From a virus, in IMG/VR virus record IMGVR_UViG_3300032893_000151, positions 1 to 39,441 of that record: DNA of 39,441 bases. One strand, given 5' to 3'. Position numbers and translations under genes: made by a program. How positions within the stretch are numbered: position 1 is the first letter of the stretch; each line of letters begins with the position of its first letter. The notes under the pieces are model-generated. The model was not told where the DNA came from and searched no databases. It saw only the letters and a list, made by a program, of their open reading frames with translations. This document shows, in pieces, positions 8,313 to 23,972 of this stretch.

Positions 8313-8524
8313 TGGCGAAAGTGAACGAGCCAATCGAGGAGTTCTTTATCGTCGCTTCCAAGGACGTGAGCGGCGATATAGACGACCTCAAGGATACCTG
8401 CGGGTGGTACGCATCATCGGACGATGCGCTGTCTGAGGCTGCGGTAACTGCCAATCCTGGCGATGACGGCGAAGGCTTCCCCCAAGTCGTCTATCGGGTC
8501 CAGAAGTTCGTAGAGGTCCTGTGA
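8312..8524 (+). CDS. Small acidic hypothetical protein (70 aa)
   Basis: A 70-residue strongly acidic protein (IEEFFIVASKDVSGDIDDLK, then GDDGEGFPQVVYRVQKFVEV). The pattern of two short strands flanking an acidic loop and helix suggests a compact alpha/beta fold. It is coupled to the gene upstream by a shared base. Very acidic small early proteins can act as DNA mimics or host-enzyme inhibitors; that is a guess from charge alone. Confidence 0.65.
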   Translation: MAKVNEPIEEFFIVASKDVSGDIDDLKDTCGWYASSDDALSEAAVTANPGDDGEGFPQVVYRVQKFVEVL

Positions 8525-8543
8525 GCGAGTCCGAGGGTACGAC

Positions 8544-8771
8544 ATGAGAATCAAACTGACACGCGCCCAGGTGCGTCAGCTCAAGCCTTACATGGAGTGG
8601 TTGCGCGCACAGCCGCGGCAGGAATACGGGCCGATGCTCGTCGCTCAGATAGCCCACGAGTACCCGGACGAAATGCGGGTAGGCGTCATCCCCGCCAAGA
8701 AAGCGAGAGCTTTCGTCAATACCGCCAACGACAAGGTGTTAGCTGCTGTGGGCAAGGATGGTGGTACGTGA
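8544..8771 (+). CDS. Small hypothetical protein (75 aa)
   Basis: A 75-residue protein starting MRIKLTRAQVRQLKPYMEWL, with a second helical segment (PAKKARAFVNTANDKVLAAV). A 19-nt gap with a purine-rich stretch (gcgagtccgaggg) precedes the ATG. Its stop overlaps the GTG of the next gene. No family recognised. Confidence 0.65.
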   Translation: MRIKLTRAQVRQLKPYMEWLRAQPRQEYGPMLVAQIAHEYPDEMRVGVIPAKKARAFVNTANDKVLAAVGKDGGT

Positions 8772-8938
8772 AAACCGCAGCCGTGAATTTGTATCTGTCC
8801 GGCGTGTTCACTGCTTTCGCGGCTATCCATTCAAGGATGGGAGACGGCTGGATTGCTGATGTGGCGTTCGCCTTTCTCACCGGTGCAGTGGGACTTCTTG
8901 TGATGTCGCAGGGTTACGGCAAGAGTGCAGGCACATGA
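8768..8938 (+). CDS. Small membrane protein (56 aa)
   Basis: A 56-residue protein with two hydrophobic stretches, about residues 5-20 (AVNLYLSGVFTAFAAI) and 30-46 (ADVAFAFLTGAVGLLVM), joined by a short polar loop. It should be a two-helix membrane hairpin. The GTG start overlaps the upstream stop (GTGA) and its stop overlaps the next ATG (ATGA). Far from the lysis cassette, it could be a superinfection-exclusion or membrane-active early product. Confidence 0.65.
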   Translation: MKTAAVNLYLSGVFTAFAAIHSRMGDGWIADVAFAFLTGAVGLLVMSQGYGKSAGT

Positions 8939-9177
8939 CCGATGAGAAACTATTCGCCGCCGGAGACCGGGCGCTCTACGACATGGGGCCTGGGAAACTG
9001 CGGCCATGTGAGATCGTCTACGTCGGCAGGCGCTGGAGCAAGTACGGAGCCGGGTACGGTAATCACTACTACTGCATCGTGCCTGAGCTTGAGGACGGCA
9101 AAAAGCTAAAGCAGCGCACAGTGAGCGCTAGGTTTCTCAGACGCGCTGATAAATCCACAGCGGAGCATGGCAAGTGA
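8935..9177 (+). CDS. Small hypothetical protein (80 aa)
   Basis: An 80-residue protein rich in aromatic residues (RRWSKYGAGYGNHYYCIVPE, about 32-51), with strand-like flanks (DRALYDMGPGKLRPCEIVYV) that suggest an SH3-like small barrel. It is coupled at both ends by 4-nt overlaps. Function unknown. Confidence 0.65.
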   Translation: MTDEKLFAAGDRALYDMGPGKLRPCEIVYVGRRWSKYGAGYGNHYYCIVPELEDGKKLKQRTVSARFLRRADKSTAEHGK

Positions 9178-9368
9178 ACACGCCGAAGGAGTTCGAGGAC
9201 TGGTTCTCTAACAATCACCCGTGGGACTGGTTCAAAGACGAGCTTGGCGATCCGGTCCCCACGTCCATGCGCATTCGGCTATGGGAATGGGCTCGCGCCG
9301 CTTGGACTCAGACAGAGTCTCGCATCAACGAGAGACGCGGTCATAGTGCGAGCGGTGAGCATGGCTAA
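9174..9368 (+). CDS. Small Trp-rich hypothetical protein (64 aa)
   Basis: A 64-residue protein with many Trp residues (FEDWFSNNHPWDWFKDELGD, then RLWEWARAAW). A GTG start overlaps the upstream stop (GTGA), and the 3' end overlaps the next gene by 8 nt. Short FExW...-type proteins with this helical, Trp-rich layout occur in many phage genomes as unknowns. Confidence 0.65.
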   Translation: MNTPKEFEDWFSNNHPWDWFKDELGDPVPTSMRIRLWEWARAAWTQTESRINERRGHSASGEHG

Positions 9369-9570
9369 AGACACGGTGCGACACCTATTGGATGAGGTCG
9401 AGGAGCTGAAGCGGCGTGTGCGCGATCTGGAGCAGCGCCCTGTTACCTACCAACCGGTCTACGGCCCTCATGGTATACCGACGGGGCCGCCACAGCAGGA
9501 CGGAAAGTGCGTTGTATGCGGAGGCGCGCACGGAGGATTGGCTTGCCCTCACTTAGAGCCGAGGTGCTGA
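9361..9570 (+). CDS. Coiled-coil plus Cys-cluster small protein (69 aa)
   Basis: A 69-residue protein with an N-terminal coiled coil (HLLDEVEELKRRVRDLEQR, residues 8-26), a Pro/Gly linker and a C-terminal cluster of CVVC (50-53), CPH (62-64) and a terminal Cys, consistent with a zinc knuckle. The ATG is used in a different frame from the longer overlapping reading that starts at 9244. It is the last gene of the compact early block, followed by a strong hairpin. Confidence 0.65.
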   Translation: MAKDTVRHLLDEVEELKRRVRDLEQRPVTYQPVYGPHGIPTGPPQQDGKCVVCGGAHGGLACPHLEPRC

Positions 9571-9601
9571 CAATGGAACAGCACGCCCGCACTCCACAAA
9601 C

Positions 9602-9630
9602 GAAGACGCCACCCATTACGGTGGCGCTTC
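9602..9630 (+). terminator. Strong hairpin, likely end of the early transcript
   Basis: gaag-a-cgccacc / cattac / ggtggcg-cttc forms an 11-bp stem with one bulged A and a 6-base loop. There is no run of T after it, so intrinsic termination is uncertain; it may stabilise or process the transcript instead. Confidence 0.5.
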
Positions 9631-9659
9631 TGAGCTAGAACGGTAGTACCAGTTGCTCT

Positions 9660-9678
9660 CCTCGATGATCAGTCGAGG
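9660..9678. other. Second hairpin in the same gap
   Basis: cctcga / tgatcag / tcgagg gives a 6-bp stem with a 7-base loop, 30 bp downstream of the larger hairpin. It is too weak alone to call a terminator. Confidence 0.3.
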
Positions 9679-9837
9679 CTCAGGACTGAATCTAAGCTAA
9701 CTTCTAGCCTGCGAGGATTTTACCCGTGACGACGACATACAGCAACGCTCACCTGATAGGGCTGGTTTCGCTGACAGGTGGCATACGTTGTAAACGCTGT
9801 TGCGAGCAGCGACGCGCTGACAGCGCAGACGGTTAGC

Positions 9838-10131
9838 ATGGTGGGTGCCAAGCAGAAGCCGCTATCGGCCGAGATGCACGCGGCGATCGACCTCATGATG
9901 CGCACGGATGGGTCGCTCTACCGCTACCCTGGCGGGATGTGGGCTACCGAGCGCGGCAAGAACTGGGGCGGGGATGCCTTCGGCACCCCAACGGTCAAGG
10001 CGCTGATCGCGCGCGGCATCTGCTCCTGGTCAGACTGGAAAGTCGGTCCCCTCGGGCGCTTCCCGGTGCGCGCCACGCTCGCCTCGAAGCTGGACGCGAC
10101 GGTCGCGCCCATCTTCCATCAGCGGCAGTAG
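9838..10131 (+). CDS. Small hypothetical protein (97 aa), isolated plus-strand gene
   Basis: A 97-residue protein with an N-terminal helix (SAEMHAAIDLMMRTDG), then LYRYPGGMWATE, TPTVKALIARGI and FPVRATLASKL. Helix-strand-helix pieces of this order, with RYPGG..W and TPT..AL..RG, recur in phage small proteins and look like a winged helix. A GTG at 9778 in frame would add 20 residues; neither start has a clear Shine-Dalgarno. The stop (10129-10131) lies one base from the lipase stop of the opposing operon. Confidence 0.65.
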   Translation: MVGAKQKPLSAEMHAAIDLMMRTDGSLYRYPGGMWATERGKNWGGDAFGTPTVKALIARGICSWSDWKVGPLGRFPVRATLASKLDATVAPIFHQRQ

Positions 10132-10132
10132 G

Positions 10133-10882
10133 TCACACCGGATCGGGCACTGAGTCCGGGTCGAGGAGCCAGGCGTAGTTCTGCGCGTGGTGCCAGCTAC
10201 CCGGGTTGTCGGGGATCGCTGGATTGGCCGGGATCTCGACCAGGTTGCTGAGGGGCGCGTAGCCGCCTCCGAAGGGCACTTTGGGCACCAGGTCCTTTTC
10301 GTAGGCGTATCCCGCGAGGTCGCGGATCGCCGCACTGGCGGCCCCTGAGAAAGCCGTATCGCCTGGGCGAGGCGATGCAAGGAGCCGCGCCGCGACCTGC
10401 TCCGGGTGCATCGAGGCGAGATCATAGGCTGCATAGGTGGCGAGCGGCGCCCCGAGGGAGTGACCGGCGACGGTGATGTGGCGCCCGGCCGCCACCTCGA
10501 GCACGCCAGCGGCGAGCGGCTCTTCGGTCCCCGCTGCGGTCAGAAGGCGCGCCGAGTCGTAGATGTTCCAGAAACCGGCGTGCACGTGGCCCGTGATCGG
10601 GTGCGCAACAAGCGCCGCCTCGGCGTCCTTCGCCCACTCGATCGCGCGCTCCGTGCCGCGGAACACCAGCGCACACTCGGCGTCATTCGCCGCCAGGAAG
10701 CCATAGAACACCCGCTGGCGCCCGAAGGAGGCGAGCTGGTCGACGGCCGTGATGTGCGCGAGGAGGGTGTAGCCCAAGGCCCCGAGGCGCGGATCCGCCC
10801 CGGGGCTCAGGTCGGTGGGATCGCGCTCGAACGTGTCCTCCGCCGCCCAGGCGAGGACCGCGTAGCGCGCATCGGCCTTCAC
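10133..10882 (-). CDS. Class 3 (alpha/beta hydrolase) lipase
   Basis: A 249-residue lipase. The family features are VFRGT (73-77, oxyanion region), the nucleophile elbow GHSLG (140-144, Ser142), ASPRPGD (169-175), Asp197 in EKDLVPKVPF and a C-terminal His pair (231-232), giving a complete Ser-Asp-His triad. There is no obvious signal peptide. It is the last gene of the lysis cassette, started by GTG 9 nt after the previous stop. It probably hydrolyses host lipid esters, for example to help open the outer membrane where a spanin would normally act; that role is inferred. Confidence 0.88.
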   Translation of the reverse strand: MKADARYAVLAWAAEDTFERDPTDLSPGADPRLGALGYTLLAHITAVDQLASFGRQRVFYGFLAANDAECALVFRGTERAIEWAKDAEAALVAHPITGHVHAGFWNIYDSARLLTAAGTEEPLAAGVLEVAAGRHITVAGHSLGAPLATYAAYDLASMHPEQVAARLLASPRPGDTAFSGAASAAIRDLAGYAYEKDLVPKVPFGGGYAPLSNLVEIPANPAIPDNPGSWHHAQNYAWLLDPDSVPDPV

Positions 10883-10891
10883 CGGCGCGAC

Positions 10892-11326
10892 TCAGTCGCC
10901 GCCGGGCTGCACCACGGCCGGCGTCGCACCCGCGGTCGCGGTCGGCGTCGGGTAGAGCGCGCAGACGGCCAGCACGGCGTTGCCGACGTTGTTGAGCGCG
11001 GCGGTGGCCGCCTGCCCGAGCAGCGTCGAGTTGAGGCCCTGCGCCACGACCGCCGGGAGACCCCCGAGGATGGCGAGCGACTGACTGATCGCGAGCGCCT
11101 CGGCGGGGTCGGTGATCTTGGTCGCGAGCGCCGTGTTGAGGTCGGCGAGCGCTGCCGCGCCGCCGCCGGCGTTGTACTTCTGGGCGGCGGTTACGATCGC
11201 CGCGAGCTCCGCGGCGCGCGCGGCCTGCTTGGCGGGATCGCCGCCCGCGCCGGAGCGGATGAAGCTACCGGCCAGGATGGTGACGAGGGGCTGCTCGAGG
11301 AACGCGGTTACTGCTGCGGAAGCCAT
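10892..11326 (-). CDS. Ala-rich hypothetical protein in the lysis cassette (144 aa)
   Basis: A 144-residue Ala-rich, mostly helical protein. Hydrophobic runs appear near the start (FLEQPLVTILAGSFI, 9-23) and at AISQSLAILGGLPAVVAQGL and NAVLAVCALYP, so membrane association is possible. The start shares one base with the holin-like stop (TAATG). Lying between holin-like and lipase genes, it may be a lysis accessory, but no family is recognised. Confidence 0.7.
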   Translation of the reverse strand: MASAAVTAFLEQPLVTILAGSFIRSGAGGDPAKQAARAAELAAIVTAAQKYNAGGGAAALADLNTALATKITDPAEALAISQSLAILGGLPAVVAQGLNSTLLGQAATAALNNVGNAVLAVCALYPTPTATAGATPAVVQPGGD

Positions 11327-11610
11327 TAGGGCACCTTCGCCGGCGGTGCCGGCTGCGTAGGAGGGACCGGCGGTTGCGCCGGAGGGTTGTCCGACCCGTC
11401 CGGACGATGCCGGGCGAACCAGAAGTTAGCCATCAGCACGAGGATCGTGCCGAGGATATTCGTGAGTCCGATGATGAGGTCGTGGTGCGCACTCACCTGG
11501 GGCGCCACGGGCTTGAAGAGGAGGGCGAAGATCAGGCCAACGAAGGCGACCAGCGTCGTCAGCGTGAGGACGTACTGCGCGCAGGCCGTGAGACGCTCGG
11601 TGCTCATCAT
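11326..11610 (-). CDS. Holin-like membrane protein (94 aa)
   Basis: A 94-residue protein with two transmembrane stretches, about residues 11-33 (YVLTLTTLVAFVGLIFALLF core) and 46-64 (IGLTNILGTILVLMANFWF), followed by a charged, proline-rich tail. This matches a class II holin, which would permeabilise the inner membrane to release the muramidase encoded just upstream. Its ATG overlaps the muramidase stop (ATGA, 11610-11607). Confidence 0.8.
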   Translation of the reverse strand: MMSTERLTACAQYVLTLTTLVAFVGLIFALLFKPVAPQVSAHHDLIIGLTNILGTILVLMANFWFARHRPDGSDNPPAQPPVPPTQPAPPAKVP

Positions 11611-12116
11611 GGGAGGATCGCTCGCGTATATACGGTGAGAAGCCGGTCCATCCAGGTGTACTCGAACACGTCCTCTTTGGCGTCGAGCTGAGCATAAGCA
11701 ACGCCGCGGTAGGCTGCAAATTTCTTAACCTGCAGGGTTCCGGCGGCCTGCGCGGCGCGCAGCGTCCCGGGTCCGATGAGCCCGTCGGCCGGCACGCCGA
11801 GCGCCTGCTGGAGCGTGATCGCCGCCCGGTGCTGGCCCTCGTTCACCGCCGTATCGAAAGCACAGAGCGCCAGCGGCCAGGGGAGTGAGTCACCTTGGAC
11901 TTCGGTCCACTCGTTGAGCCGGTAGAGCGTCGCCGCCTGGGATTGCGTAAGGTCTGCGACGCTCGCCGGAAGGGTGAGTTCCGGGTGGGCGGCGCGGTTC
12001 GCCTCGAGGTAGTGCTGGGTGACCCCGAAGTTGGTCGCGCCGCCTGGATCGGCGGGGTTATCGACGTAGCCTCCCTCGAGGGTGATGACGAAGGAGATGA
12101 TGTCGTCGCGGGTCAT
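11607..12116 (-). CDS. Endolysin, GH108-type muramidase
   Basis: A 169-residue cell-wall hydrolase. The N-terminus MTRDDIISFVITLEGGYVDN carries the family catalytic Glu (14) in LEGGYV, followed by PADPGGATNFGVTQ, the hallmark of glycosyl hydrolase 108. The C-terminal half (GVPADGLIGPGTLRA) matches the small peptidoglycan-binding domain usually fused to it. It lacks a signal peptide, so it needs the neighbouring holin. ATG at 12116 is preferred to 12152 because of the family N-terminus and the ATGA overlap with the upstream peptide stop. Confidence 0.92.
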   Translation of the reverse strand: MTRDDIISFVITLEGGYVDNPADPGGATNFGVTQHYLEANRAAHPELTLPASVADLTQSQAATLYRLNEWTEVQGDSLPWPLALCAFDTAVNEGQHRAAITLQQALGVPADGLIGPGTLRAAQAAGTLQVKKFAAYRGVAYAQLDAKEDVFEYTWMDRLLTVYTRAILP

Positions 12117-12238
12117 CGTTTTCCCTTGCGCGGCGGGAGGAGCCTGCGGCACTTAGCCCAGTCGAGAAGCGTGTGCACGCCGAGCGCTACGAGCGCGCCG
12201 ATCGACACGATGCGCGCGTAGATGTCCTCGTACCGCAC
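12113..12238 (-). CDS. Membrane-anchored peptide upstream of the endolysin (41 aa)
   Basis: A 41-residue peptide with a hydrophobic helix (ARIVSIGALVALGVHTLLDW, residues 8-27) and a basic tail (KCRRLLPPRKGKR). It begins at GTG 22 nt after the tail-fibre stop and its stop overlaps the endolysin start (ATGA). Size and position fit a small lysis-accessory membrane protein; it is too short and lacks a periplasmic coil for a normal i-spanin. Confidence 0.6.
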   Translation of the reverse strand: MRYEDIYARIVSIGALVALGVHTLLDWAKCRRLLPPRKGKR

Positions 12239-12259
12239 GGGCCTAGCAGAAGCAGCCCA

Positions 12260-14485
12260 TCAGAAGCCTCCCTCGTTCCAGATGGTCACGGTGCGAAGGC
12301 TGATGGTGTCGGCGGCCCCGTTGATCGTTTCCTGCACCGTAATCGTGCCAGCGCTCACGGTGACGGACCTCGAGCCCTGCGCGACCAATGGGTTCTGCCC
12401 ATTCTGCGTGAGGGATGCCTCGTAGCTCTGAGTGTTGGTGCCCGTCGCGTAGCACTCACACTCGAAAACGAAGTCGCCCGCCACCGCGCCCGTGGTGAAC
12501 CCGGCGACGGCCGAGCCGTCGAGGTTCACGGTGATGTTCTTGGTGCCGGCCGTGCCAGTCATCGTGCCCACGATGCGGATGCGGAAGTTCTTGACGGAGG
12601 TGTTGAAGTCCGCGCCGATCGCGCCCGTGTAGGTCTTGACCGTCGTCGCGCCGAGCACGCCGGTATTCGTGATGAAGGTGGCATCCACCGGCTGGCGCAG
12701 CGGCGCCGTCCAAGTGCCCTGGCGCGTGAACTCGCTCGTGCCACCGTAGAGCAGCACATTGGTCCCGTTGCCCGAGAAGTTAGCGCTGGTCCCGTTGTCG
12801 TTCCAATTGGAAGCGGAGCGCAGGCGCAAGCCCGCGGTCGCGTTGCTGGTGAGGGCGCTGAAATTACAGTTGGCCCGCGAGGCACAGATGATATCGATGC
12901 CCACGGCGCAGTTATTGATGCCCGTATAGTCCACGTGGCCGGTGGCGTTCTCCTGGAGCAGGATGCCCGCCTGCGAGCAGCCCGTGATGTAGGGGCCAAC
13001 GTTCGCCTGGCCGGCGTTGCCGCTCGTCGCCGTGGTCGTGCAGTTGTAGCCGATCGTGTGCGTCTCGCCCGAGATGCAGGTGATGCCGACGACGCCGCCC
13101 GTGATCTTGCCCGCCTGGCCGTAATAGATCCGGCCCTGCTGCTCCTTCACCGCGTTATCGACGTTGTTGAACTGCACGTTGCTTGAGAGGTAGACCTCGC
13201 TGAACTCCTGCGCGACGACGCCATAGCAGCTGCCGGCATTCGCGAAGTTCTGAACGAGGAGGTCCTGCAGAAGCAGCGTGTTATTGCCGTTGCAGTTGAT
13301 GGCGAACGCACCGGCGGCGGCGCCAGTGCCGTCGAGGATCGTCTGGGGCGTGAAGGGCAGCGTCCCGGGCTTGCCCTTGAACTGGATATAATTCTGCGAC
13401 TGCAATCCTGCTGGGATCGTGATGGCCGGCAGGGTGAAAGTGCCGCCACCTGGGTTGCTGATCGTCCAGGTGCCCGCAAGGACCGGGCCATAGAAGGCCA
13501 GCATCGAGAAGGCGTGCGCCAGCGTGAGCATCGGCTGCGAATCGCTGAGGCCGTCGTTTGCATCACTCCCGGTCGTCTCCACGAAGAGCGTGTTGGTCTG
13601 CGAGGCGCTCGGGCTCAAGTAGAAGGACACGCCTCCTCGCGTGATGATCGCCTGACTCACCGCCTTGCGTGCCTGGTGCAGGTTCGGCACGCTCGAGGAG
13701 GTGAGATAGGTGCCCGCGCCCCACACCGGCGAGCCGCCCGCCTGGAGCGACTGAGCGCACGCGGCGCTGACGGCGACCGTCATGTCGGTCACGCCGGGAG
13801 CGGTATTGGTTCCGTAGCGGTCGATGACGCCGGGCAGGAAGATCCCGTTGACGATGGTCAGCGATGCTGCGCTCTCCGCTGGCGTGATCGGGTAGGGCGT
13901 CGAGGCGAGCAGGAAGGCGTTGAACGCCGCCTGCGTCAGTGCGGTCGTCGGGAGGAGACCGATCTGGAGGTTCCCGCTTGCATCGAAGTAGGGCGTCCCG
14001 CCGCCCGTGCCGTTGAGGGAGCGCGCGACGGCGGTAGGCAGGTTGACGAGCGGGTTCGAGTCGCTGTCGGGCGCGACCATGGCGCGGTTGAGCTGGTCCT
14101 CCAGCCGCTGCACCATCTGCGTGAGGCGGTCGAGGTTCTGCTGGAGCGCGGCGCTCGGGAACTGCTGGTTCTGGACGTACTGGGTTTGCTGGGTCTGCAC
14201 CGGGTTCACGAACACCTGGAGGGTGTAGCCCGCCGGGAACGGCGAGGTGAGACCTCCGCCCGTCTGCGTCGCGAGCTGCCATTTGGGCGGGGAGTCCGAA
14301 CTCGCGGGCGCCAGCGTGTAGTTGCTGTTGAGCGTGAGCGTTACCGGCGGCAGGCCGCTCGAGACCGGGGGCGTCAGGATCGCCTCGAAGTCCGTCGCGA
14401 GGTAGGCCTGGACGGGTACCTGGAAGAGCGTGGTTACGCCGTCGCACAGTGCCGTGACGCGCGGCTGCGTTGTCCCGATGGTCAT
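12260..14485 (-). CDS. Tail fibre / tailspike with beta-helix
   Basis: A 741-residue receptor-binding protein. The N-terminal ~140 residues resemble the T7 gp17 anchoring domain and include a coiled segment (LQQNLDRLTQMVQRLEDQLN, about 114-133). From about 250 to 560 the chain is rich in short strands, Gly, Asn and Thr (for example YYGQAGKITGGVVGI) as in a right-handed beta-helix. The last ~150 residues form a separate beta domain. The start overlaps the polyvalent protein stop by 4 nt (ATGA). An enzymatic tailspike activity cannot be judged from sequence alone. Confidence 0.85.
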   Translation of the reverse strand: MTIGTTQPRVTALCDGVTTLFQVPVQAYLATDFEAILTPPVSSGLPPVTLTLNSNYTLAPASSDSPPKWQLATQTGGGLTSPFPAGYTLQVFVNPVQTQQTQYVQNQQFPSAALQQNLDRLTQMVQRLEDQLNRAMVAPDSDSNPLVNLPTAVARSLNGTGGGTPYFDASGNLQIGLLPTTALTQAAFNAFLLASTPYPITPAESAASLTIVNGIFLPGVIDRYGTNTAPGVTDMTVAVSAACAQSLQAGGSPVWGAGTYLTSSSVPNLHQARKAVSQAIITRGGVSFYLSPSASQTNTLFVETTGSDANDGLSDSQPMLTLAHAFSMLAFYGPVLAGTWTISNPGGGTFTLPAITIPAGLQSQNYIQFKGKPGTLPFTPQTILDGTGAAAGAFAINCNGNNTLLLQDLLVQNFANAGSCYGVVAQEFSEVYLSSNVQFNNVDNAVKEQQGRIYYGQAGKITGGVVGITCISGETHTIGYNCTTTATSGNAGQANVGPYITGCSQAGILLQENATGHVDYTGINNCAVGIDIICASRANCNFSALTSNATAGLRLRSASNWNDNGTSANFSGNGTNVLLYGGTSEFTRQGTWTAPLRQPVDATFITNTGVLGATTVKTYTGAIGADFNTSVKNFRIRIVGTMTGTAGTKNITVNLDGSAVAGFTTGAVAGDFVFECECYATGTNTQSYEASLTQNGQNPLVAQGSRSVTVSAGTITVQETINGAADTISLRTVTIWNEGGF

Positions 14486-17400
14486 TCGGTGCTCGCTTTC
14501 ACCTTCTCCGGTGGCAGGCCCATCCAGTCCCCGACCTTCTGCTCGAGCATGTTGGTGGCCCGGCGAAGGTACCAGATTTGATTCGCAGGCATGAGCCGGC
14601 GCAGGCGATGGAGGTCGCTGCGGCTGAACTGGGGGAGCGGCCGCCCGCCCGCCTGCGCCGCCGGCCCCTGGATCGCGCCGCGCACCTTGGCCGGCAGGCG
14701 CAGGTCCCAGAGGTCCACCGCGGCGCCTAGCACGGGGCCGCCGAGCGTCTCCCAGGTCTGCCGGTCGCCCCAGCGCGAGAACGACGGCTCCCCGAGCGCC
14801 CAGAGCGACGGGTAGAAATACTCCCCGAACCAGCCGAGGAGGTTCGACTTGTCCAGCACCTCGAGCGCGAAGCGCTGCGGGTCCTTCTCGATCGGCTGGC
14901 CGCTCACGAGCTGCTTGGCGGCATAGACGAGGGCCCCCGAGGCGATGAGGGAGGCGAGACCCTGCACCGCGCGCAGGTCACCGTGCGCGATGCCCTGGGC
15001 GAGCGGCGTGACGACCTTACGTACCGCGACCGCACCAAAGGTCTTGAACTGGAAGAGGGCCTTGCCCCACTCCTGGCTCGTCCAGAGCGGTGTGTCACCC
15101 TTGGAGGGCGTGAGCGTCGCGGCCTCGGCGTGCTTGTCGACCGCCGCGATGAAGGCGCGCGCGGCCTCCTGGTCCTTCCACTGGTCGGGCATGCCGAACC
15201 GCAGGCCATTCACGTCGACGCCGTGCTCGCGCGTCTCGGCGCCGATGCGGCGCAGGAGGTCCTCCCCGAGGCCCGCCTGGTTCAGACGGGTGAGCTCCAT
15301 GTCGGAGAGACGCTCGCCGGCAGCGACGCGCTCCGCCGACCGGACGAACTCGTGCTGCGCGACGGCGCCGCCGAGTGCCTTGATGGTCGAGATCCATGGC
15401 GTCTCGAGGGTCGCGATTGTGAAGGCGCGCGTCCCGCGGTTGAGGAGGCGCTGCGTGGGATAGGCGCTCTCGGCGCCGAATTCCCCGAGCTGGGCCGCCG
15501 TCGTGTTGTGGATCATGTCGAGCGCGTTACCGAAGGCCTGCTGCTGGTCCCGGTTGAGCTTCAGCGCCTCGAAATCGGTCGCGAGCTTCGCGGCGGCGGC
15601 GAACGTGTTACCGAGGCCGTGTCGCATGATGACGTTGGCGACGTCCGGGAAGTGTGAGAGCGTCGCGGTGCCGAGGAGCCGGAACACGTTGACACTGCGC
15701 CCGATGCGCATAGCCCGCCAGATCCAGGACGAGGGGTCGCCAGGCGCGCCGTAGATGCCATACATGCGGTCCCGCATCGCCCCGAGGTCCCGTATATCGG
15801 CCTTTAAACGGTCGTTGAGCTTATTCGCCCCGTCGTTGTCGCCGGAGGCGAGCTTGCGCTGGATCAGCACGTTGTACTCATCGCCAATGCGCTCGAAGGC
15901 CTGCTGCATGCTCCGATCGCCGAAGCGTTTCGTGACCTCGACCTGCGGGGCGAGCGTGTGCAGGTAGGCGTGGCTCAGGCGGTCGATGTCGTTGACCAGG
16001 TACTTCTCGAGGTCCACGTCGGGGAGCAGGAGCTGCCGGGCCTGCAGGCGGCCGGACTGCGGAACGATGTCCTTGAACACCGTGTCGTTGAGGTCGAGGA
16101 GGCCGAGCTCCGAGCCCATGAGGTTGCGCGTCACCTTGTGGGCGATGTCGTCGGCCTCGGCGTAATCGACGCCCTGGTTGTGGAAGGCGTCGCGGAGCAT
16201 CTGGTGGAAGTTCACGCGATCGGCCCGGATCGCCGCCCGGTCGTATTGGCGCATGAGGTAACTCTCGGCCGTGCCCTGGAGGAGATCCCCTTGCGTGGGC
16301 ATCAACCCGAGACGCTGCGCCTCGACCTTCAGCGGATCAAACACGAGGCGGCGGGTCTCACGCGCGGCCTCAGCGACCTCGGGCACCTGGTGCTTGTCGC
16401 CGCGGCGCATCGCGGCCGAGACCTCCTCGTTCCATGTGCGCTTATCGAGGCGCGCGGGCTCGCCCGGCTTCACGTCCCGGGCGTTGTAGTCCCGGAAGGC
16501 ACTCTCGCGCGCGCGGAAACCCTCGAGCCAGCGGCCCTCCCAGCGCTTTAGCAGCAACTCGACGGACGTCGGCGTCGGAAGTCCCGCCGGCCGCTCGGCA
16601 CTCGGGACGTTCATTTCCAGCATCTCGGGCGTCTCGGCGAGCTCGATCGCGACGCGGCGCGCCTCTATCGAAGGCGAGAACAGGAGCCGCGAGCCCGGCG
16701 CGAACCAGCCGAGCGCCCGCCCAAGCACGCGACCGCCGCGGGCGAGCGAGAGGTCCTTGAGCGTGAGGTCGGCGGCCTGCTTCGCGCCGGCGGTCGACTC
16801 CCCGGGAGCCGCGGTGACAGGAGGTGACGGCTGCGCACCAACGGGAGCGGGAGGTGCCTCCGAGAGCGCCCGGAGACGCGCCTCGAAGGGCGCGCGCTTT
16901 TCTTCCGGGAGCTGTCGCAGCAGATCCTCGAGGTCGGCTTGCCGCCGGGACTGCGAAAAAAGGTCATCGGGACGTCCGGTCTCGAGCGGGACTTCGCGCT
17001 GCTGCGCCGCCTCGCGGCGCGCGCGCTCGTCCGCTACGGCTTGGCCTGGGGGCTTGGCGCCGAAGAGGTCGCCCTGGCGAGCTGCGCTTGCTCCTCCTGC
17101 GCGAGGTCCTGCTGGCGGCTGGCCTCCAGCTTCGAGAGAAAATCCGGGTCCGCCGCCGCCTTTGCCCCCGGCAGGTTCTGCGAGAGCGCCTGTCTCCCCG
17201 TGCTCTCCACTGGCGGGGATCCCGTCGCGGTCTGGCCCAGGCGTCTCGCGATGCGCCGGCCCGCGACGAGCAAGGCTTGCGTCCGCGTCATGCCCATCGA
17301 GGAACCTCTTGATCGCCGCCATGAACGCGGCCGGGTCATCCTCGTGCATCCGCGCCAGGGTTTCAACTGCCGCCTCGTCGATCACGCTCGCGCGCGCCAC

Positions 17401-20400
17401 CATGGCCGTCTCGTGCGCGTCCGCCGTGTTCGCGGCCTTGAGATGCTCATCCAGGCCCGCGAGGTCCTCAGGCTCGGGCAGGAACGGCTGGGAGGCGCGC
17501 CGCTGGTCGGCGACCTCCTGCATGTACTCGACCAGCATCTGTTGCTTGGGTCCGAGCTTCTCGCCCGCAAGCGCCTTATCGACGATGCGCGAGACCTCCT
17601 CCTCCGAATAGCCGCCGGGACGGCCCGGCCACCACTCCGCGTTCGGAATCCACGAGGTGCGCCCAGTGACGCGCCCCTCCTCGTTCATGAGGACGCGGCC
17701 ACCCTTCTGCGCCCAGCCGCTCTCCGTCTCGGCCATGGTGCGAAGGTCGGCGCGCAGCACGTCGTCCGTGGCGAGCCGGCGCCCGAGCGAGGTCGTGGCG
17801 CGCTCGGCCTGCGCGGCGCGCGCTGCGGCGGTCTCCTGCTGAGACGCCAGCATGCGATCCATGACGCCGCGGATTTCGTCGGGTACCCGCTGGCCGGCCG
17901 CTGCGAAGTTGCTGTAGACCTTGAGGAGCCAGTCCCGGAACTTCTGGAAGATCACCTCCAGGCGCCCGGACGGCGCGCGCCCGTCGCGCAAGTACGACTC
18001 GAACCCACGCGCGAACTGCTCCTGGTGCTCGCGCTGGCCCTCCGGGCCGAGCTCCCGCCACTGCTTGAGGTCATCGACGCCGAACCAGTCGAGGAGGGTC
18101 TTGGCATCCTCGCGCAGCTCCTGCGGCGCTTCCGCGTGACTCGCGATCTCCATGGTCACGTCGAGGAAGTGATGGCCGCTTTCATGCAGGAACGTGGACG
18201 GGTCCGCTTTCTCGAAGAGCGAAAGGGTCCGCGTCTGCGGGTTGTAGGCGCCGCGGCCCTCCTGCATGAACTCCATGGAGCGCAAGGGATCCGGGTGCGT
18301 CTCGCTCAGTGCCTCGCCGGTCTTGAGGTTGATGGCGTCCATCACCTCCGTGCTGGCGTTACGCAGGAACCCCGCCAGGTTGCGAATGCCCACGGTTCCA
18401 AAGTCGCCGGCGTCCGCAATGATGACCCGGCTCGCGTTGCTGATCGATAGCGCCCGGTAGAGCGCGTCCATGCCGCCCGTGCCGCGCAAGCGCACCGCCT
18501 CGCGCCCGGTCATGGGCAAGAAGCCGACGGGGATGCCGCGGTTGTCGAGCAGCACGAGGCCCGAGTGTCCCTCGGCGATCCGCGGCACGGCCTCCATCGC
18601 CTCTTTCGGCCCCGTGATGGGGAAGCCGAGGCTGCCGTGCTCGACGAACACGCGCTCGGCGACCGGCACGTGCATCTCGGCGGTGAGCGGGCCCGTGATG
18701 CCGATGCGCTCCTGCGCTTTGCCGTCCGCGAAGGTCCATGAGCGCCCGTGCTCCTCGGCGCCTCCAGCGATCGCGAAGATACCGTGGGGTTCGATGCCTG
18801 AACCCTCGAACACCCTGGCGAGCCGCTGGTTAATCATGTGGTCGGCGGTCGAGAGCGCCGGCTGGCCACTCGGGTGGTTGTGGCCGAACCAGATGTGGCG
18901 CGCACCCGGGATGCGGAACGCCTCGGCGGCGACGATCTGCGGGAACACGGACGCCTGGTTGTGCGAGCCAACAGACGACCCGACGACCGCGAGCGGCTTA
19001 CCCGCCGCGTCCGTCACCAGCGCATCGAAACGTTCCTTGCTGCCGCGCGCCAGCGTCGCAAAGGCCTGCGCCGCCTCGTCGATCGAGACGACGTGATCGG
19101 TGCCTAGGCGCCGCGTGGCTTCCTGGATGATTTCCGTGCGGGTGGCGTAGCGGGCCGGCGGCAGGAGCGGTAGCTCGCCGGCGGCTGGTACGTGCCCGCC
19201 CTCTCCGGGCGGCGGGGCGGCCCGAGGCGTTCGGGAGGCTGGCGGTAGCGGTTCGACGGCATTGCCGAAAAGGTCCTTGCTATAGGGCCCGATTGTACGC
19301 TCTTTAACCCCTCCGGTTTCGACTTCGGCGCGCACCCCTTCGATGACGCGCAACGGATACCGCTCGAAGAAGGCCTCGCCCGTCATGCCGAGGCGCTTGC
19401 CCTGGGTGTCGGCGAACGCCTGGATGAGGTCGGCATAGGCGCCGTTCTGGTCCTTGTCGCGCCGGCCCGTCGCCTCGAGGTCGGCGATCACCTGGTCGCG
19501 CACCGTCGCCCCGACGGCGCGGGCCCGCAGTTGCCCCGGGGTGAGGAGCTTCTCGCGCTCGCCCTCGATCGCGGCGAGTTCCTGCTGGGCAGACTCCCGC
19601 TCCGCCTGGGCGCGCTGCTGCTCGCCCTCCGCGCGCTGCCTCAGGACCTCCATGTACTCCGGCCCATAGGCTGCCTCGAGACGCGCCCGGACGGGTTCCG
19701 GCGTTGCCATGCGCTCCGCCTCGGCGCGAGCGGCCTCATCCGCTGCCTCGGGAGCCACCGGCTGTCCGGCCGCTCTCAGACGTTCCTGCGCAGCCTGGGA
19801 GCGTGCCTCAAGTTCCTCGGGGCGGGCGGCGGCGGCGAGCTGCTCCTGCTGGTGCTGCTCGACCGCGGCGCGCAGGTCCCGCGCCAGGGCGGCAGCGGTG
19901 TCGCCGGCGGGAGCGATCGGTTCGCCCCGCTGAGGCATCACGGGCGGGGGGCGGCTCAAATCCTCCTGGAGCCGCGCTCGCAGTTTCGCGAACTCGGGCG
20001 CCGGAACGTGCGGCCGGATGGCCGCCCCCATGAGTCCCGAGAGGAGGGTCCCCGCCGTGACGCTGGTCAAGCTGAAATCGTGCGTCGGGTCCATGAGGTG
20101 CATCAGCGCCTCATCCGTCGCCGCCGTCGCACCGCCGATGAGGGCGAGGCGCGCGGCGTTGGCGAGGCGCACCTCGCCCGCGATGGGGATTGCCATGGAG
20201 GCGAGCGTCACGGGGTCCGCGAGGCCCCACGCGAACGCCGCAGCGCCGCTCCAGCGGTGCTGCGCCATGGCCTGCGCGTCCCGGAAGTTGCCCATGATCT
20301 GCTGCGTGCGGTAGTCGATCTCGCGCTGCGTGTAGAGCCCGACATAGCGGTCCTTGAAGGGCAGCATCTCGTCCGGGATGCGCCCGGGCGGGCCCTCGTC

Positions 20401-20811
20401 CTGCTGGAGACCGAACTGGGGGAGCCCAGAGGCCATCACGTCGGTGAGAGTCTGGTAGGCCCGTCCCGGGATGGTGGTGCGCGCCGCGGCAGCCCAGGCG
20501 TCCAGCGCCGAGTACTTCGGCCCGCTCGCCCCCGTCCCGCCCATGCTCTCCGGCGGCAGAATCACGGGACCCGGCACCTGGAGCTCGCGCATGTCCTCCG
20601 CGGACTCGCGCGCCGGCGGTGCGGCGGCTGGCGCTGCTCGCTGGGTCTCCCCGGGCTCGAGCGCCGGCTCGTAGTCCTCTGGGCGCGTGGTGTGCGGAGG
20701 CCGCCCGGCGGCTCCCATGGGGTTGTCCGGGGTCGCGCTACCACCGGGAGGCCCCTCGGCCACGGGCGGCGGCAGGCGCGTCTCAATCGGCTGTGGGAGC
20801 ACGAGCGGCAT
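14482..20811 (-). CDS. Giant internal virion polyvalent protein (gp16 position; JAB and zincin domains)
   Basis: A 2109-residue protein, far longer than T7 gp16 (about 1318). It has a Pro/Ala-rich N-terminus, hydrophobic segments near 190-265 and a long Ala/Glu coiled region (310-430). A RadC-type JAB domain (about 560-690) carries HNHPSG (644-649) and a downstream STAD. An HESGH zincin motif follows (876-880), then coiled and Pro-rich linkers (about 1100-1400), and a helical C-terminal third with a membrane-like stretch near 1951-1970. The C-terminal SQEWGKALFQFKTF-type segment resembles large polyvalent protein-associated domains of podoviruses. It is probably ejected with the DNA; the two enzyme domains may cut host proteins. 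No transglycosylase motif was recognised. Confidence 0.85.
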   Translation of the reverse strand: MPLVLPQPIETRLPPPVAEGPPGGSATPDNPMGAAGRPPHTTRPEDYEPALEPGETQRAAPAAAPPARESAEDMRELQVPGPVILPPESMGGTGASGPKYSALDAWAAAARTTIPGRAYQTLTDVMASGLPQFGLQQDEGPPGRIPDEMLPFKDRYVGLYTQREIDYRTQQIMGNFRDAQAMAQHRWSGAAAFAWGLADPVTLASMAIPIAGEVRLANAARLALIGGATAATDEALMHLMDPTHDFSLTSVTAGTLLSGLMGAAIRPHVPAPEFAKLRARLQEDLSRPPPVMPQRGEPIAPAGDTAAALARDLRAAVEQHQQEQLAAAARPEELEARSQAAQERLRAAGQPVAPEAADEAARAEAERMATPEPVRARLEAAYGPEYMEVLRQRAEGEQQRAQAERESAQQELAAIEGEREKLLTPGQLRARAVGATVRDQVIADLEATGRRDKDQNGAYADLIQAFADTQGKRLGMTGEAFFERYPLRVIEGVRAEVETGGVKERTIGPYSKDLFGNAVEPLPPASRTPRAAPPPGEGGHVPAAGELPLLPPARYATRTEIIQEATRRLGTDHVVSIDEAAQAFATLARGSKERFDALVTDAAGKPLAVVGSSVGSHNQASVFPQIVAAEAFRIPGARHIWFGHNHPSGQPALSTADHMINQRLARVFEGSGIEPHGIFAIAGGAEEHGRSWTFADGKAQERIGITGPLTAEMHVPVAERVFVEHGSLGFPITGPKEAMEAVPRIAEGHSGLVLLDNRGIPVGFLPMTGREAVRLRGTGGMDALYRALSISNASRVIIADAGDFGTVGIRNLAGFLRNASTEVMDAINLKTGEALSETHPDPLRSMEFMQEGRGAYNPQTRTLSLFEKADPSTFLHESGHHFLDVTMEIASHAEAPQELREDAKTLLDWFGVDDLKQWRELGPEGQREHQEQFARGFESYLRDGRAPSGRLEVIFQKFRDWLLKVYSNFAAAGQRVPDEIRGVMDRMLASQQETAAARAAQAERATTSLGRRLATDDVLRADLRTMAETESGWAQKGGRVLMNEEGRVTGRTSWIPNAEWWPGRPGGYSEEEVSRIVDKALAGEKLGPKQQMLVEYMQEVADQRRASQPFLPEPEDLAGLDEHLKAANTADAHETAMVARASVIDEAAVETLARMHEDDPAAFMAAIKRFLDGHDADASLARRGPAHRETPGPDRDGIPASGEHGETGALAEPAGGKGGGGPGFSLEAGGQPPAGPRAGGASAARQGDLFGAKPPGQAVADERARREAAQQREVPLETGRPDDLFSQSRRQADLEDLLRQLPEEKRAPFEARLRALSEAPPAPVGAQPSPPVTAAPGESTAGAKQAADLTLKDLSLARGGRVLGRALGWFAPGSRLLFSPSIEARRVAIELAETPEMLEMNVPSAERPAGLPTPTSVELLLKRWEGRWLEGFRARESAFRDYNARDVKPGEPARLDKRTWNEEVSAAMRRGDKHQVPEVAEAARETRRLVFDPLKVEAQRLGLMPTQGDLLQGTAESYLMRQYDRAAIRADRVNFHQMLRDAFHNQGVDYAEADDIAHKVTRNLMGSELGLLDLNDTVFKDIVPQSGRLQARQLLLPDVDLEKYLVNDIDRLSHAYLHTLAPQVEVTKRFGDRSMQQAFERIGDEYNVLIQRKLASGDNDGANKLNDRLKADIRDLGAMRDRMYGIYGAPGDPSSWIWRAMRIGRSVNVFRLLGTATLSHFPDVANVIMRHGLGNTFAAAAKLATDFEALKLNRDQQQAFGNALDMIHNTTAAQLGEFGAESAYPTQRLLNRGTRAFTIATLETPWISTIKALGGAVAQHEFVRSAERVAAGERLSDMELTRLNQAGLGEDLLRRIGAETREHGVDVNGLRFGMPDQWKDQEAARAFIAAVDKHAEAATLTPSKGDTPLWTSQEWGKALFQFKTFGAVAVRKVVTPLAQGIAHGDLRAVQGLASLIASGALVYAAKQLVSGQPIEKDPQRFALEVLDKSNLLGWFGEYFYPSLWALGEPSFSRWGDRQTWETLGGPVLGAAVDLWDLRLPAKVRGAIQGPAAQAGGRPLPQFSRSDLHRLRRLMPANQIWYLRRATNMLEQKVGDWMGLPPEKVKASTE
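18172..18186 (-). other. HESGH zincin metallopeptidase motif
   Basis: Codons 876-880 of the polyvalent protein encode H-E-S-G-H in the context STFLHESGHHFLD. The HExxH pattern supplies two zinc ligands and the catalytic Glu. The third ligand would lie downstream and is not certain. Confidence 0.75.
18865..18882 (-). other. JAB (RadC-type) metal-binding motif HNHPSG
   Basis: Codons 644-649 of the polyvalent protein encode HNHPSG, followed by PALSTAD. The HxHPSG...S..D signature is that of RadC-like JAB/MPN metalloproteins, which include deubiquitinase-like isopeptidases. Confidence 0.75.
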
Positions 20812-23090
20812 CAGCGGAGCGACATGTTCGGATACTGGGCGTCGAGCTTCAGGGCATCGTAGGCGGCCTTATCGGCCGCCGTGATCCGCTCATATTCGGC
20901 CTGCGCCTTCTTCACCTGGGCGTCGTATTGGCGCTTACGTGTCGCCTCGTAGTCCTCCTTGCCGACGGGGAGGGTGTAGGTGAGCGGCCGCCCATCCGCC
21001 CGGAAGATGACCTCCGGGGCGCCAAACTCCTGCTCGCTCTCGTACATGAGACCCCATTCGCGGCCTCCGGTCGTGTCCGTAAGTCCCGGAATCGGCACAA
21101 GGTGTACCTTGTCCGGTTCCACGTGGAACGTCTCGAGCTTGTGGTCGGCGTCGCTCCAGCGCTGGAAGGCCTCCGCGTGCTCCTTGACCTGCTGGGTGAT
21201 GTCGCCGCGGATGTCCTCGACCGTCAGGCCTGGGAACACCCGCTCGGGTGGGTAGCGCATGAGCTCGGGCTGGCCGTTCACGTTGGTGATGCCCCAGGCC
21301 TTGCCGATGCGCTCGTTGGCCGAGTCCTCGGCCTGCTGGAGGTTGCCGCCGTTGTACTGGAAGAACCCCCGCACGAGGCGCGAGTAGTCGGCCTCCATCT
21401 CGGGCGGGATGGTGCCCGGGAGGTTGCGACCGTAGAGGAGCCCCGGGCTCGTCAGGCGCGGATCGTCGGCGAGCTGCTGGCGGATCACGCCCTCGATGGC
21501 CCGCTGGCCGCTCGCGAACGGGGCCTGCTGTTTCCACATCTCATCGAGGCGCTGGCGGTCCTCGTCCCCCTGGGAGGCCAGCTCGCGAGCCATCTTGACG
21601 GCCTCGACCGCGGGCACGCCGTTCTTCGTGAGGCGCGCGACCTGGTCGGCCATGGCGCCGAGCTTCTTGTCGTCATCGAAGTACGGGAAGCCGCGCGGCG
21701 CGGCGGCGCGCATCCGCTCGACCGCATCGCTCGCGGCGATAATTTGCTTCGGGTCCTGGCTCCCGACGAGCACCTGGCGGGCCCATTCGCCGACGTTGTC
21801 CGGGATGACGCCCGTGCGGCGCGCGAACTCGGCGCCGAGGTTCACCCACGACTGGCTGCCGGTCGGCGCGTCGTTCGCCTTGGTGAAGGCCTCGAACCAC
21901 TCGTAGAGGTCATCCTTGACTTGCTTGCTCTTGGGGTCGAGGAGGGTCTTGCCGTCCCATGCGTCCTGAATGGCGGAGATACCCGCCTCAGCCTCCGTGC
22001 GGCCACGCTCCGCAGCGTCGAGCGCACCCAGTGCGGCGCCCGTCGAGTGCGGGTCGAGCGCGTTGTTGTGGTAGAGCGACCAGATTTCCCCGCGGGTGCG
22101 CGGGTCCGGGTCTTTCGAGCGCAACTGCTCCTCGACGTCGATGATGCGGTCGGCGAACTTCTGCTTCTGCTCGGCGATGAGGCCCGCGCGCTGCTTCTCG
22201 ACCTCCGAGCGGATCGCTTCGCGCATCACGTCCTGCTCGCCCTGGGGACCAGGGAGCTTGAGGTCGTTCAACTCCTCAAGCGCCCGGCTACCGGCTTCCG
22301 GGCCGCCGGCGCGGTACTGCGCGATGGCGTTGGCCGCGTAGTCGGTCACGACGCCGCGCCGCGCGCTGTCGAGCACCTCAGCGCGCGACACTGGGTCGAG
22401 CTCCTGCAGGTGCGGGTCCGCCTGGTCGGACTCGCCGAGGAGCTGCTCATAGACCGCGTGCGGGTTCTGATCAACCATGCCGAGCGCTGCCGAGCGTGTG
22501 AGAGCCGAGTGCATCCGGTTCATGTAGGCGAGTTTCTCGGCGGGTTCGAGGCGCGACAGGTTCGCCTGCTCGACGAGGGACTGGCCGATCTGGTCGGCGG
22601 TCTCCGGGTGCTGGCGCACGAGCGGGAGCTGCCGCTCTAGGTTCTTCTGGAGCGAGTCGGTCTGGTAGGCGACGCGCTGATGTGCTTCCCACTCCAGCGC
22701 GTGCTCGAACACGCTCGCCCGCAGCTGTGAGGCACCGCGGTCGAGCATCGAGCTTGCGATGGGGTTGTCCGCGGCCTTCCCGACCGTGGCCTTCGCTTGG
22801 CTGTCGTACTGCGCCATGAAGTTCTCGGCGAAGTTGCCGGGATCTCCCGCGGGCACGGCGGCCTTGGCGTCCTGGAGCGCTTTCAGCGTGTTGACCCGCA
22901 GGTTCGCGAGCTGGTCGCCGGCGTAGGTGGCCGAGTCGGCGGCGTACTTCTGGCCGAGGGCCCCTGCGACCGCCTCCACGCCGCCGACGAGCGGCGCTTG
23001 GCGCTCCTCGGGAATGACCTTGCGCGGTTCACTCTCCGGGGTGACTTCCGGCCGGTAGACCTCCTCGCCGATGGGCTGGCCGCGCGGCAT
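20811..23090 (-). CDS. Internal virion protein (gp15-like)
   Basis: A 759-residue, largely alpha-helical protein. Length (T7 gp15 is about 747) and position immediately before the giant gp16-like gene fit the internal core / ejection protein that builds the channel for DNA entry. It has long amphipathic helices (QKQKFADRIIDVEEQLRSKD, near 310) and a coiled C-terminus (YEATRKRQYDAQVKKAQAEY). The start is 4 nt after the preceding gene, and the stop shares one base with the next start (TGATG). Assignment rests mainly on length, order and helical content. Confidence 0.8.
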   Translation of the reverse strand: MPRGQPIGEEVYRPEVTPESEPRKVIPEERQAPLVGGVEAVAGALGQKYAADSATYAGDQLANLRVNTLKALQDAKAAVPAGDPGNFAENFMAQYDSQAKATVGKAADNPIASSMLDRGASQLRASVFEHALEWEAHQRVAYQTDSLQKNLERQLPLVRQHPETADQIGQSLVEQANLSRLEPAEKLAYMNRMHSALTRSAALGMVDQNPHAVYEQLLGESDQADPHLQELDPVSRAEVLDSARRGVVTDYAANAIAQYRAGGPEAGSRALEELNDLKLPGPQGEQDVMREAIRSEVEKQRAGLIAEQKQKFADRIIDVEEQLRSKDPDPRTRGEIWSLYHNNALDPHSTGAALGALDAAERGRTEAEAGISAIQDAWDGKTLLDPKSKQVKDDLYEWFEAFTKANDAPTGSQSWVNLGAEFARRTGVIPDNVGEWARQVLVGSQDPKQIIAASDAVERMRAAAPRGFPYFDDDKKLGAMADQVARLTKNGVPAVEAVKMARELASQGDEDRQRLDEMWKQQAPFASGQRAIEGVIRQQLADDPRLTSPGLLYGRNLPGTIPPEMEADYSRLVRGFFQYNGGNLQQAEDSANERIGKAWGITNVNGQPELMRYPPERVFPGLTVEDIRGDITQQVKEHAEAFQRWSDADHKLETFHVEPDKVHLVPIPGLTDTTGGREWGLMYESEQEFGAPEVIFRADGRPLTYTLPVGKEDYEATRKRQYDAQVKKAQAEYERITAADKAAYDALKLDAQYPNMSLR

Positions 23091-23094
23091 GGGC

Positions 23095-23538
23095 TCAGGT
23101 CATGCCGCTCGGCGGGTAGGTGGTATAGCTCCCCGAGAGGGCCTGCAGCGCCTTCGCGCCGGCGAGAAGGCCGCCGCCGGCGAGCGCCTCATCGGCCTGG
23201 CGGCGCAGAATTTGCGACTCGACGCCGTAGCCGTAGCCGGTGAACTGCGCCTTGTAGCGGGTGTTGAGGGCGTCGAGCTCCTGGTTCACCGCTGACTGGT
23301 TGAGCGCGAGGCCGCTCGAGACCCCACCGCCGACGCCCGCGCCCGCGAACGCGGCCGACTCCTTGCCGAGGGCCTGACGCGAGGCGCGGCGGACGAGGTT
23401 CTCCTGCGCGGCGCCCTGGTTGATCGCGGTGCGCTGCTCGTTCTGCATGACGCCCGCGTTGAACTTGTCGGCGCTGCTCTGGCGCAGGCCCGCATAGAGA
23501 CCGGCGCCGGCGCTCAGGAACGGGATCACGGTCGCCAT
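23095..23538 (-). CDS. Internal virion protein (gp14-like)
   Basis: A 147-residue protein starting MATVIPFLSAGAGLYAGLRQ, with Gly/Ala-rich helical sequence, an AAFAGAGVGGGVSSG stretch and an NQELDALNTRYKAQ helix. T7 gp14-type proteins share this style: a hydrophobic N-terminus, then Ala/Gln-rich helices and QARQ-like repeats. ATG 23538 shares one base with the upstream stop (TGATG); longer readings are shadows of the gp13-like gene. It probably forms the outer-membrane part of the ejection conduit. Confidence 0.8.
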   Translation of the reverse strand: MATVIPFLSAGAGLYAGLRQSSADKFNAGVMQNEQRTAINQGAAQENLVRRASRQALGKESAAFAGAGVGGGVSSGLALNQSAVNQELDALNTRYKAQFTGYGYGVESQILRRQADEALAGGGLLAGAKALQALSGSYTTYPPSGMT

Positions 23539-23972
23539 CAGCCCCTCCGCACGCGCGCGTAGCGCAAATGGTCCTCGCCGTCCTCGCCGTAGGCTTCGGA
23601 GACGCCCTCCGGGGTGAAGTGCAGCAGCTCGAGGAAGCGGCAACCCGCCGGGAAGCACCGGGGCGCCGAGGCCTCGAGGCGCCGGTACGGGAGCGAGGCA
23701 AGGAAGCGCCGGCTCGCCTTGTGGAGCGGCACCATGTGGCGGCCGGCGTCCTTCGAGAGGATCGCCCAGAGCGTGCCGAGCCAGGGCGCGAAGGGCACGA
23801 CGCCGCCGCACATGATGACGCGGCCGTCCGCCCACGCGGTGAGCGCGTAGCCGGGAAGCCCCGCGAGCGAGATGCCGCTCGAGGGAGCGAGGGAAATCTG
23901 CGACGCCTGCACGCCGCCAGCGAAGAGCAGGTCGACGTGCACGGCGCGGAAGGCTTCGATCTTCAGGGTCAT
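23538..23972 (-). CDS. gp13-like virion protein (acetyltransferase-like fold)
   Basis: A 144-residue protein matching the T7 gp13 style (about 138 aa): ALTAWADGRVIMCGGVVP (near 41-58), then WAILSKDAGRHMVPLHKASRRFL and ELLHFTPEG near the end, a GNAT-like pattern without obvious retained catalysis. T7 gp13 is needed for proper virion morphogenesis. The ATG overlaps the nozzle stop (ATGA). Confidence 0.8.
   Translation of the reverse strand: MTLKIEAFRAVHVDLLFAGGVQASQISLAPSSGISLAGLPGYALTAWADGRVIMCGGVVPFAPWLGTLWAILSKDAGRHMVPLHKASRRFLASLPYRRLEASAPRCFPAGCRFLELLHFTPEGVSEAYGEDGEDHLRYARVRRG

Follow-up and report, generated by a model that had tools for sequence, protein, structure and literature searches.

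The window analysed here is the whole 39,441-base virus record, in which tail tube A and B genes, a gp14-like gene, a gp15-like gene, a very long gene and a fibre gene follow one another in T7-like order. The long gene, encoding the gp16-type polyvalent ejection protein P0001, was defined from its open reading frame, translation and match to phrog_342, and runs from an ATG start across positions 14482-20811 on the minus strand to give a product of 2109 aa, exactly as first read from the sequence. It is flanked by a 759 aa gp15-position protein (20811-23090, minus), characterised by profile and domain searches, and beyond this by a gp14-like internal virion protein (23095-23544, minus; phrog_418, E 4e-16), whose start we set at an internal ATG. 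On the other side lies a fibre-like gene in the gp17 position (12260-14485, minus), named from gene order, that is from position and sequence only. Big plus-strand ORFs opposite the 2109-residue gene are read as high-GC antisense frames, and no RNA families or tRNAs were found across the window. The final 126 bases (39316-39441) are an exact repeat of positions 3-128, so the record probably represents a full genome, either terminally redundant or circular. Elsewhere in the window there is a class 3 lipase gene (10133-10882, minus; PF01764, E 4e-18), two genes from a GH108 endolysin at 11607-12152, and a low-complexity ORF of 977 aa rich in Thr, Ser and Ala (32311-35244, minus). The 1011 aa tail tube B protein (23969-27004, minus) has a weak E1_FCCH match at residues 384-448, and its homologue in an Oryzomonas prophage has an E1_FCCH match likewise.

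Using a profile search, we found that the C-terminal 830 residues of the 2109-residue protein match phrog_342 (E 1.4e-82), the profile that T7 gp16 itself matches with E=0, and both this homology and the gene order back the earlier placement of the protein in the gp16 position. T7 gp16 has 1318 aa, leaving a surplus of 791 aa, in keeping with the ~800 residues first estimated, while the cargo-less gp16-type proteins of TL-2011b, CKB-S2, EC.W1-9 and ctHz2215 have 1004-1129 aa. Mapping with hhalign and BLAST against these four relatives divided the protein into three parts. The N-terminal conserved gp16 block (residues 147-272; 19996-20373, minus) is hydrophobic, lies at the position of T7 TMH I, and was placed by hhalign against TL-2011b (window residues 147-265 with 83-203, E 3.6e-13) and by the matches of two close relatives, L014 and L002, to phrog_342. 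The gp16-C block (residues 1340-2093; 14533-16794, minus) covers phrog_342 positions 398-1224 and aligns over residues 1361-2093 with TL-2011b 267-1003 (E 1e-86). Between them, residues 273-1339 (16795-19995, minus) form a large insertion of >1,000 aa without counterpart in the cargo-less relatives; profile comparison leaves ~1,095 residues between the blocks in the window and ~63 in TL-2011b, and pairwise BLAST tightens this to ~1,070 and ~30, respectively. Direct hhalign of the window blocks with T7 gp16 gave a weak alignment that was not significant, and the link to T7 accordingly runs through the PHROG profile and the cargo-less relatives. These alignments identify the protein as an internal virion protein of the T7 gp16 type, with a single large insertion accounting for its surplus length, and we regard this architecture as very nearly certain.

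The insertion point can be set on the gp16 backbone, since the N-termini of the close relatives match phrog_342 at positions 317-535 (L014) and 286-447 (L002) while the C-terminal match of the window protein begins at position 398-415, which together put the insertion near profile position 400-450. In T7 gp16, TMH I comprises residues 243-410, and gp16-C, placed in the cytoplasm, starts at 411 (PMC8954989). By this alignment the insertion sits at the junction between the first membrane segment of T7 and its cytoplasmic hub, and as the T7 residues after TMH I lie on the cytoplasmic side, homology suggests that the inserted block should face the host cytoplasm.

Within the insertion, residues 562-683 (18763-19128, minus) form a RadC-type JAB domain, as had been proposed from its HNHPSG motif (residues 644-649; 18865-18882, minus; located in the sequence and conserved in the alignment). 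The match to PF04002 (E 1.7e-11; 44.5 bits) lies above the 22.1-bit cut-off, all JAMM residues are kept, and the fold is that of RadC. In an alignment of 46 sequences E593, H644, H646 and D657 were invariant and S654 was 98% conserved, although HNH formed part of the retrieval pattern for many of these rows. An AlphaFold2 model built from 61 sequences had a pLDDT of 91.4 and superposed on RadC (PDB 2qlc) with a Z-score of 14.4 and an rmsd of 2.4 over 121 residues, compared with Z-scores of 7-9 for JAMM deubiquitinases, BubCD and CBASS Cap3. The domain falls far under the cut-offs of the NCBIfam RadC models (36.9 vs 180 and 31.6 vs 133.85 bits), and on these scores it is no RadC orthologue. The JAB is followed, in 53/53 cases, by a segment that we term JAB' (residues 715-827; 18331-18669, minus), the model of which has a strand and helix order resembling that of JAB. 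Comparison of the two using hhalign gave an E-value of 0.0013 and a score of 23.5, where the maximum of 30 shuffles was 14.6. JAB' has no metal motif in the alignment and is likely to be a degenerate copy of JAB.

Immediately beyond JAB' is a CLCA_X-type zincin domain (residues 848-1000; 17812-18270, minus), which is 48% identical to Bbp10 of Bordetella phage BPP-1 over 165 aa (E 1.5e-41); at least 487 viral contigs encode relatives of it. Bbp10 700-1000 is a seed of the CLCA_X zincin family, the consensus of which is HExxHxxxD (PMC3650047). The HESGH motif (residues 876-880; 18172-18186, minus), identified by motif location, alignment and this consensus, extends to HESGHHFLD and thus fits it, with the final position being D in the window and mostly E among relatives. 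The peptidase motif recognised by the sequence-only reading is a genuine member of an HExxH family. Since many sequences were retrieved by the HNHPSG and HESGH patterns themselves, we placed weight on S654 and D657 of the JAB, on E931 and E938 of the zincin, both invariant across 93 zincin sequences, and on the zincin homologues retrieved through JAB patterns with HExxH not used, in 23/23 of which HExxH is intact. Family-level conservation that includes these four residues outside the patterns rules out a chance occurrence of HNHPSG and HESGH. The isolated zincin was modelled with a pLDDT of 88, and the solved structures nearest to it are zincin peptidase domains (VIA Z 5.5 over 96 residues), a weak match below the level that would be trustworthy alone, which leaves a zincin-like arrangement of the metal ligands less certain than the family assignment; Foldseek with the zincin alone gave no significant match, and a PDB sequence search with the whole 2109-residue protein gave no match.

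Comparison with close relatives indicated that residues 508-848 (18268-19290, minus) are an exchangeable cassette holding an intact JAB and a probably degenerate JAB'. Identity between the window protein and the phage relative L014 is 55% over residues 848-2109 and 43% over 77-422; the homology ends at window residue 515, restarts at 848, and the gap is filled in L014 by an ART-PolyVal domain, which at 30.3 bits narrowly misses the 31.2-bit cut-off. In L002, ART, likewise under the cut-off, and JAB-JAB' occur together. On a conjugative plasmid of Pseudomonas sp. KHPS1, a JAB-JAB' matching window residues 508-848 at 37% identity lies in frame with ArdC-N and MPTase-PolyVal, adjoining transfer genes, and the cassette edges given by the phage swap and by the plasmid agree to within 10 residues. 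The annotated start of this plasmid gene (L012), at 9871, is probably too late, as the frame is open from 8845, directly after an upstream stop, and 8845-9870 encodes JAB-JAB'. JAB-JAB' was found in 49 viral contigs. At three chromosomal loci that we checked, two (L149 from Oryzomonas and L154 from Endozoicomonas) lie beside phage tail or nozzle genes and look like prophages, while the third (L147) has no tell-tale neighbour, and a conjugative context for these loci was set aside on this basis. An identical gene layout with JAB-JAB'-zincin, at 49% sequence identity, occurs at 7928-14734 of another 39-kb contig (L146), which is binned as a beta-proteobacterium and so gives a hint at the host group. 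An apparent remnant of an ART cassette is visible at residues 462-561 of the protein encoded at L094 8060-14857, upstream of an intact JAB-JAB', and a viral protein of 2629 aa (L006, 8600-16489) unites InPase, GGDEF, RadC JAB-JAB' and an HExxH-like motif. The cassette is preceded by a linker segment (residues 393-515; 19267-19635, minus) held in common with BPP-1 Bbp10 505-624 (BLASTP, 34%), and the zincin is followed by a conserved domain (residues 1008-1205; 17197-17790, minus) with a TSWIPNAEWWPGRP motif and no Pfam name. This domain is present in other architectures, including other phage proteins in which it is placed elsewhere (L006 residues 497-608; L136 515-623), and is thus mobile itself.

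The contrast between the two sides of the zincin extends across its relatives. Across 60 complete zincin proteins, the sequence preceding the zincin ranged from 588 to 2356 aa, while the distance from the zincin start to the protein end was 1278 +/- 129 aa. Likewise, among 90 distinct zincin proteins the 150 aa upstream fell into 23 sequence clusters at the BLAST level, the 150 aa downstream into 4 (of 85, 3, 1 and 1 members) and the last 300 aa also into 4. Retrieval by zincin and JAB patterns means that motif conservation was partly selected for, although this upstream/downstream contrast is unaffected. Examination of the upstream region in 50 relatives revealed ART (11/50), PBECR3 (6), PBECR1 (4), LPD3 (4), GNAT (3) and RadC (2), and InPase, Pol-beta and others also occur there. 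In 22 of 26 cases the end of JAB' and the start of the zincin are 25-30 residues apart; ART ends within 50 residues of the zincin in 14 of 31 and lies further upstream in the remainder, so cargo is also carried elsewhere in the N-terminal part.

With unrelated JAB and zincin domains joined to a gp16 backbone in one chain, the 2109-residue product is rightly described as polyvalent and as occupying the gp16 position. Its gene is encoded among late virion genes, one of the marks used by Iyer and colleagues; a Pfam search detected no named LPD or MPTase-PolyVal domain in it, these being frequent in polyvalent proteins and not required, while LPD22 is found in the N-terminal parts of 44 of the 50 relatives. 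We also confirmed that it contains no recognisable transglycosylase, as Pfam, PHROG and NCBIfam profile searches gave no SLT match. The suggestion that it carries JAB and zincin enzymes instead of a transglycosylase was right in that none is present, but the two domains lie in an internal insertion and are no simple replacement. The N-terminal transglycosylase of gp16 is phage-specific, being confined to the T7 subset, and does not define the family (PMC8954989). In relatives of the window type a transglycosylase or lysozyme resides in the gp15-position protein, as SLT in TL-2011b and BPP-1 (bbp11) and as GH108 in ctHz2215. In the window, no recognisable peptidoglycan hydrolase is present in the gp15- or the gp16-position protein, and a hidden transglycosylase in either was dismissed, none having been found. 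Alignment of the window gp15-position protein with TL-2011b gp15 is limited to 369-719, and the SLT domain of the latter is absent from the former.

From what the computation shows, namely the architecture with its insertion, the exchange of the cassette, the conservation of the metal-ligand residues and the JAB fold, we propose that this gp16-type ejection protein serves as a delivery vehicle, a mechanism in which we infer packaging, ejection, the cytoplasmic side, the cleavage and the JAB substrate. The >1,000-residue block between the N-terminal membrane block and gp16-C would reach the host cytoplasm during ejectosome assembly. The zincin, starting ~25 residues after JAB', would most likely cleave the polypeptide close by, acting in cis or across subunits, and thereby release the cargo, either inside the virion or once entry has taken place. 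The JAB, once free, would act early in infection, probably on a nucleic acid or nucleotide rather than a ubiquitin-like conjugate. A role for zincins in processing polyvalent proteins has been proposed previously, with the counterpoint that the virion RNA polymerase of N4 is packaged without being processed and retains its zincin region (Iyer et al., PMC5512222). Taken as a whole, we consider this mechanism evenly balanced between being right and wrong.

It had been suggested that the domains, if ejected with the DNA, could deconjugate or cleave host defence proteins at entry, a view in which the JAB would act like a deubiquitinase on host defence proteins of ubiquitin-like pathways and the zincin would cut host proteins. 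The complete JAMM site, the structural matches to JAMM deubiquitinases, BubCD and CBASS Cap3, and the effector-like nature of other upstream cargo, such as ART and the PBECR RNases, are consistent with this. However, RadC is by far the better structural match, and RadC-type JABs are predicted to lack the groove for a ubiquitin tail and probably process nucleic acids or nucleotides (Iyer et al., PMC5512222), which argues against deconjugation. For the zincin, there is better support for self-cutting that releases the cargo than for the cutting of host proteins, because the zincin stays constant while the neighbouring cargo changes. We therefore find both halves of the earlier proposal poorly supported and the explanation unlikely. 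It is similarly improbable that the zincin is a maturation protease which trims the protein before or during packaging, such that part of the insertion is never injected. Phage P1 DdrB, which has a C-terminal zincin and is processed before packaging, provides a precedent, but ArdC and TraC1 travel full-length and N4 vRNAP is packaged uncut (PMC5512222); furthermore, the strict conservation of the JAB catalytic site suggests that it is used.

The conservation of JAB and zincin catalytic residues across divergent sequences, together with the ability of relatives to manage without the insertion, makes it very unlikely that the insertion chiefly adds structural mass to the internal core and that its enzymes matter little, even though very long internal proteins are common in such phages and JAB' has no metal motif. 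Finally, the missing virion peptidoglycan hydrolase could suggest that JAB and zincin serve passage through the cell wall in its place. However, BPP-1 has the same zincin in addition to its SLT domain in bbp11, and neither the occurrence of the JAB cassette on a conjugative plasmid nor its exchange for ART fits wall lysis, so we consider such a role scarcely probable. Delivery of the cargo by the ejection protein, with cleavage by the zincin, remains the explanation we prefer.

More tentatively, and at somewhat less than even confidence, this could be generalised to a standard cargo bay just upstream of a conserved zincin, shared by gp16- and BPP-1-type ejection proteins and loaded in short-tailed phages with different effectors or enzymes by cassette exchange, both mutually and with conjugative plasmids; here, within minutes of entry, JAB-JAB' might disarm a host defence or condition the DNA that is coming in. 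Polyvalent proteins as a general idea are already established. Within the open-access literature, and as far as we checked, three elements are new: where exactly the insertion enters the gp16 backbone, the occurrence of the JAB-JAB' tandem as cargo in phages, and the contrast in counts between regions upstream and downstream of the zincin. Together these tie the T7-type ejectosome, which has been studied by experiment, to the idea, still little tested, that polyvalent proteins are injected. They also give exact edges for cargo exchange, at residues 508-848 and at the TMH I/gp16-C junction, provide a rule for finding candidate injected effectors in phage genomes (variable upstream, constant downstream of the zincin), and make RadC-type JAB function approachable through a phage system.

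Compared with known systems, T7 gp16 and the cargo-less proteins of TL-2011b, CKB-S2, EC.W1-9 and ctHz2215 resemble the window protein in where their gene lies and in having both the N-terminal membrane block and gp16-C. However, they have 1004-1318 aa and no insertion, whereas the window protein has >1,000 residues with JAB, JAB' and zincin between the blocks and lacks the N-terminal transglycosylase of T7 gp16. The JAB shares its fold and metal motif with RadC of C. tepidum (PDB 2qlc) but is fused, paired with JAB' and not orthologous. The polyvalent proteins surveyed by Iyer et al. in 2017 (PMC5512222) are likewise large and multidomain, combining a zincin with unrelated enzymes and adjoining virion genes, although in that survey RadC occurred in polyvalent proteins of conjugative elements only. 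With a RadC-type JAB, accompanied by JAB', now seen in a phage ejection protein, and with JAB-JAB' in viral contigs and at two prophage-like loci, this restriction no longer holds. BPP-1 Bbp10 has the gene position, linker segment, CLCA_X zincin and a variable domain just before the zincin in common with the window protein, but differs in carrying PBECR1 as cargo, in its N-terminal LPD22, and in having no gp16-C similarity by BLAST. The ArdC/MPTase polyvalent protein of KHPS1 shares the JAB-JAB' cassette, yet there it is fused to ArdC-N and MPTase-PolyVal, while in the window it is carried on a gp16 backbone.
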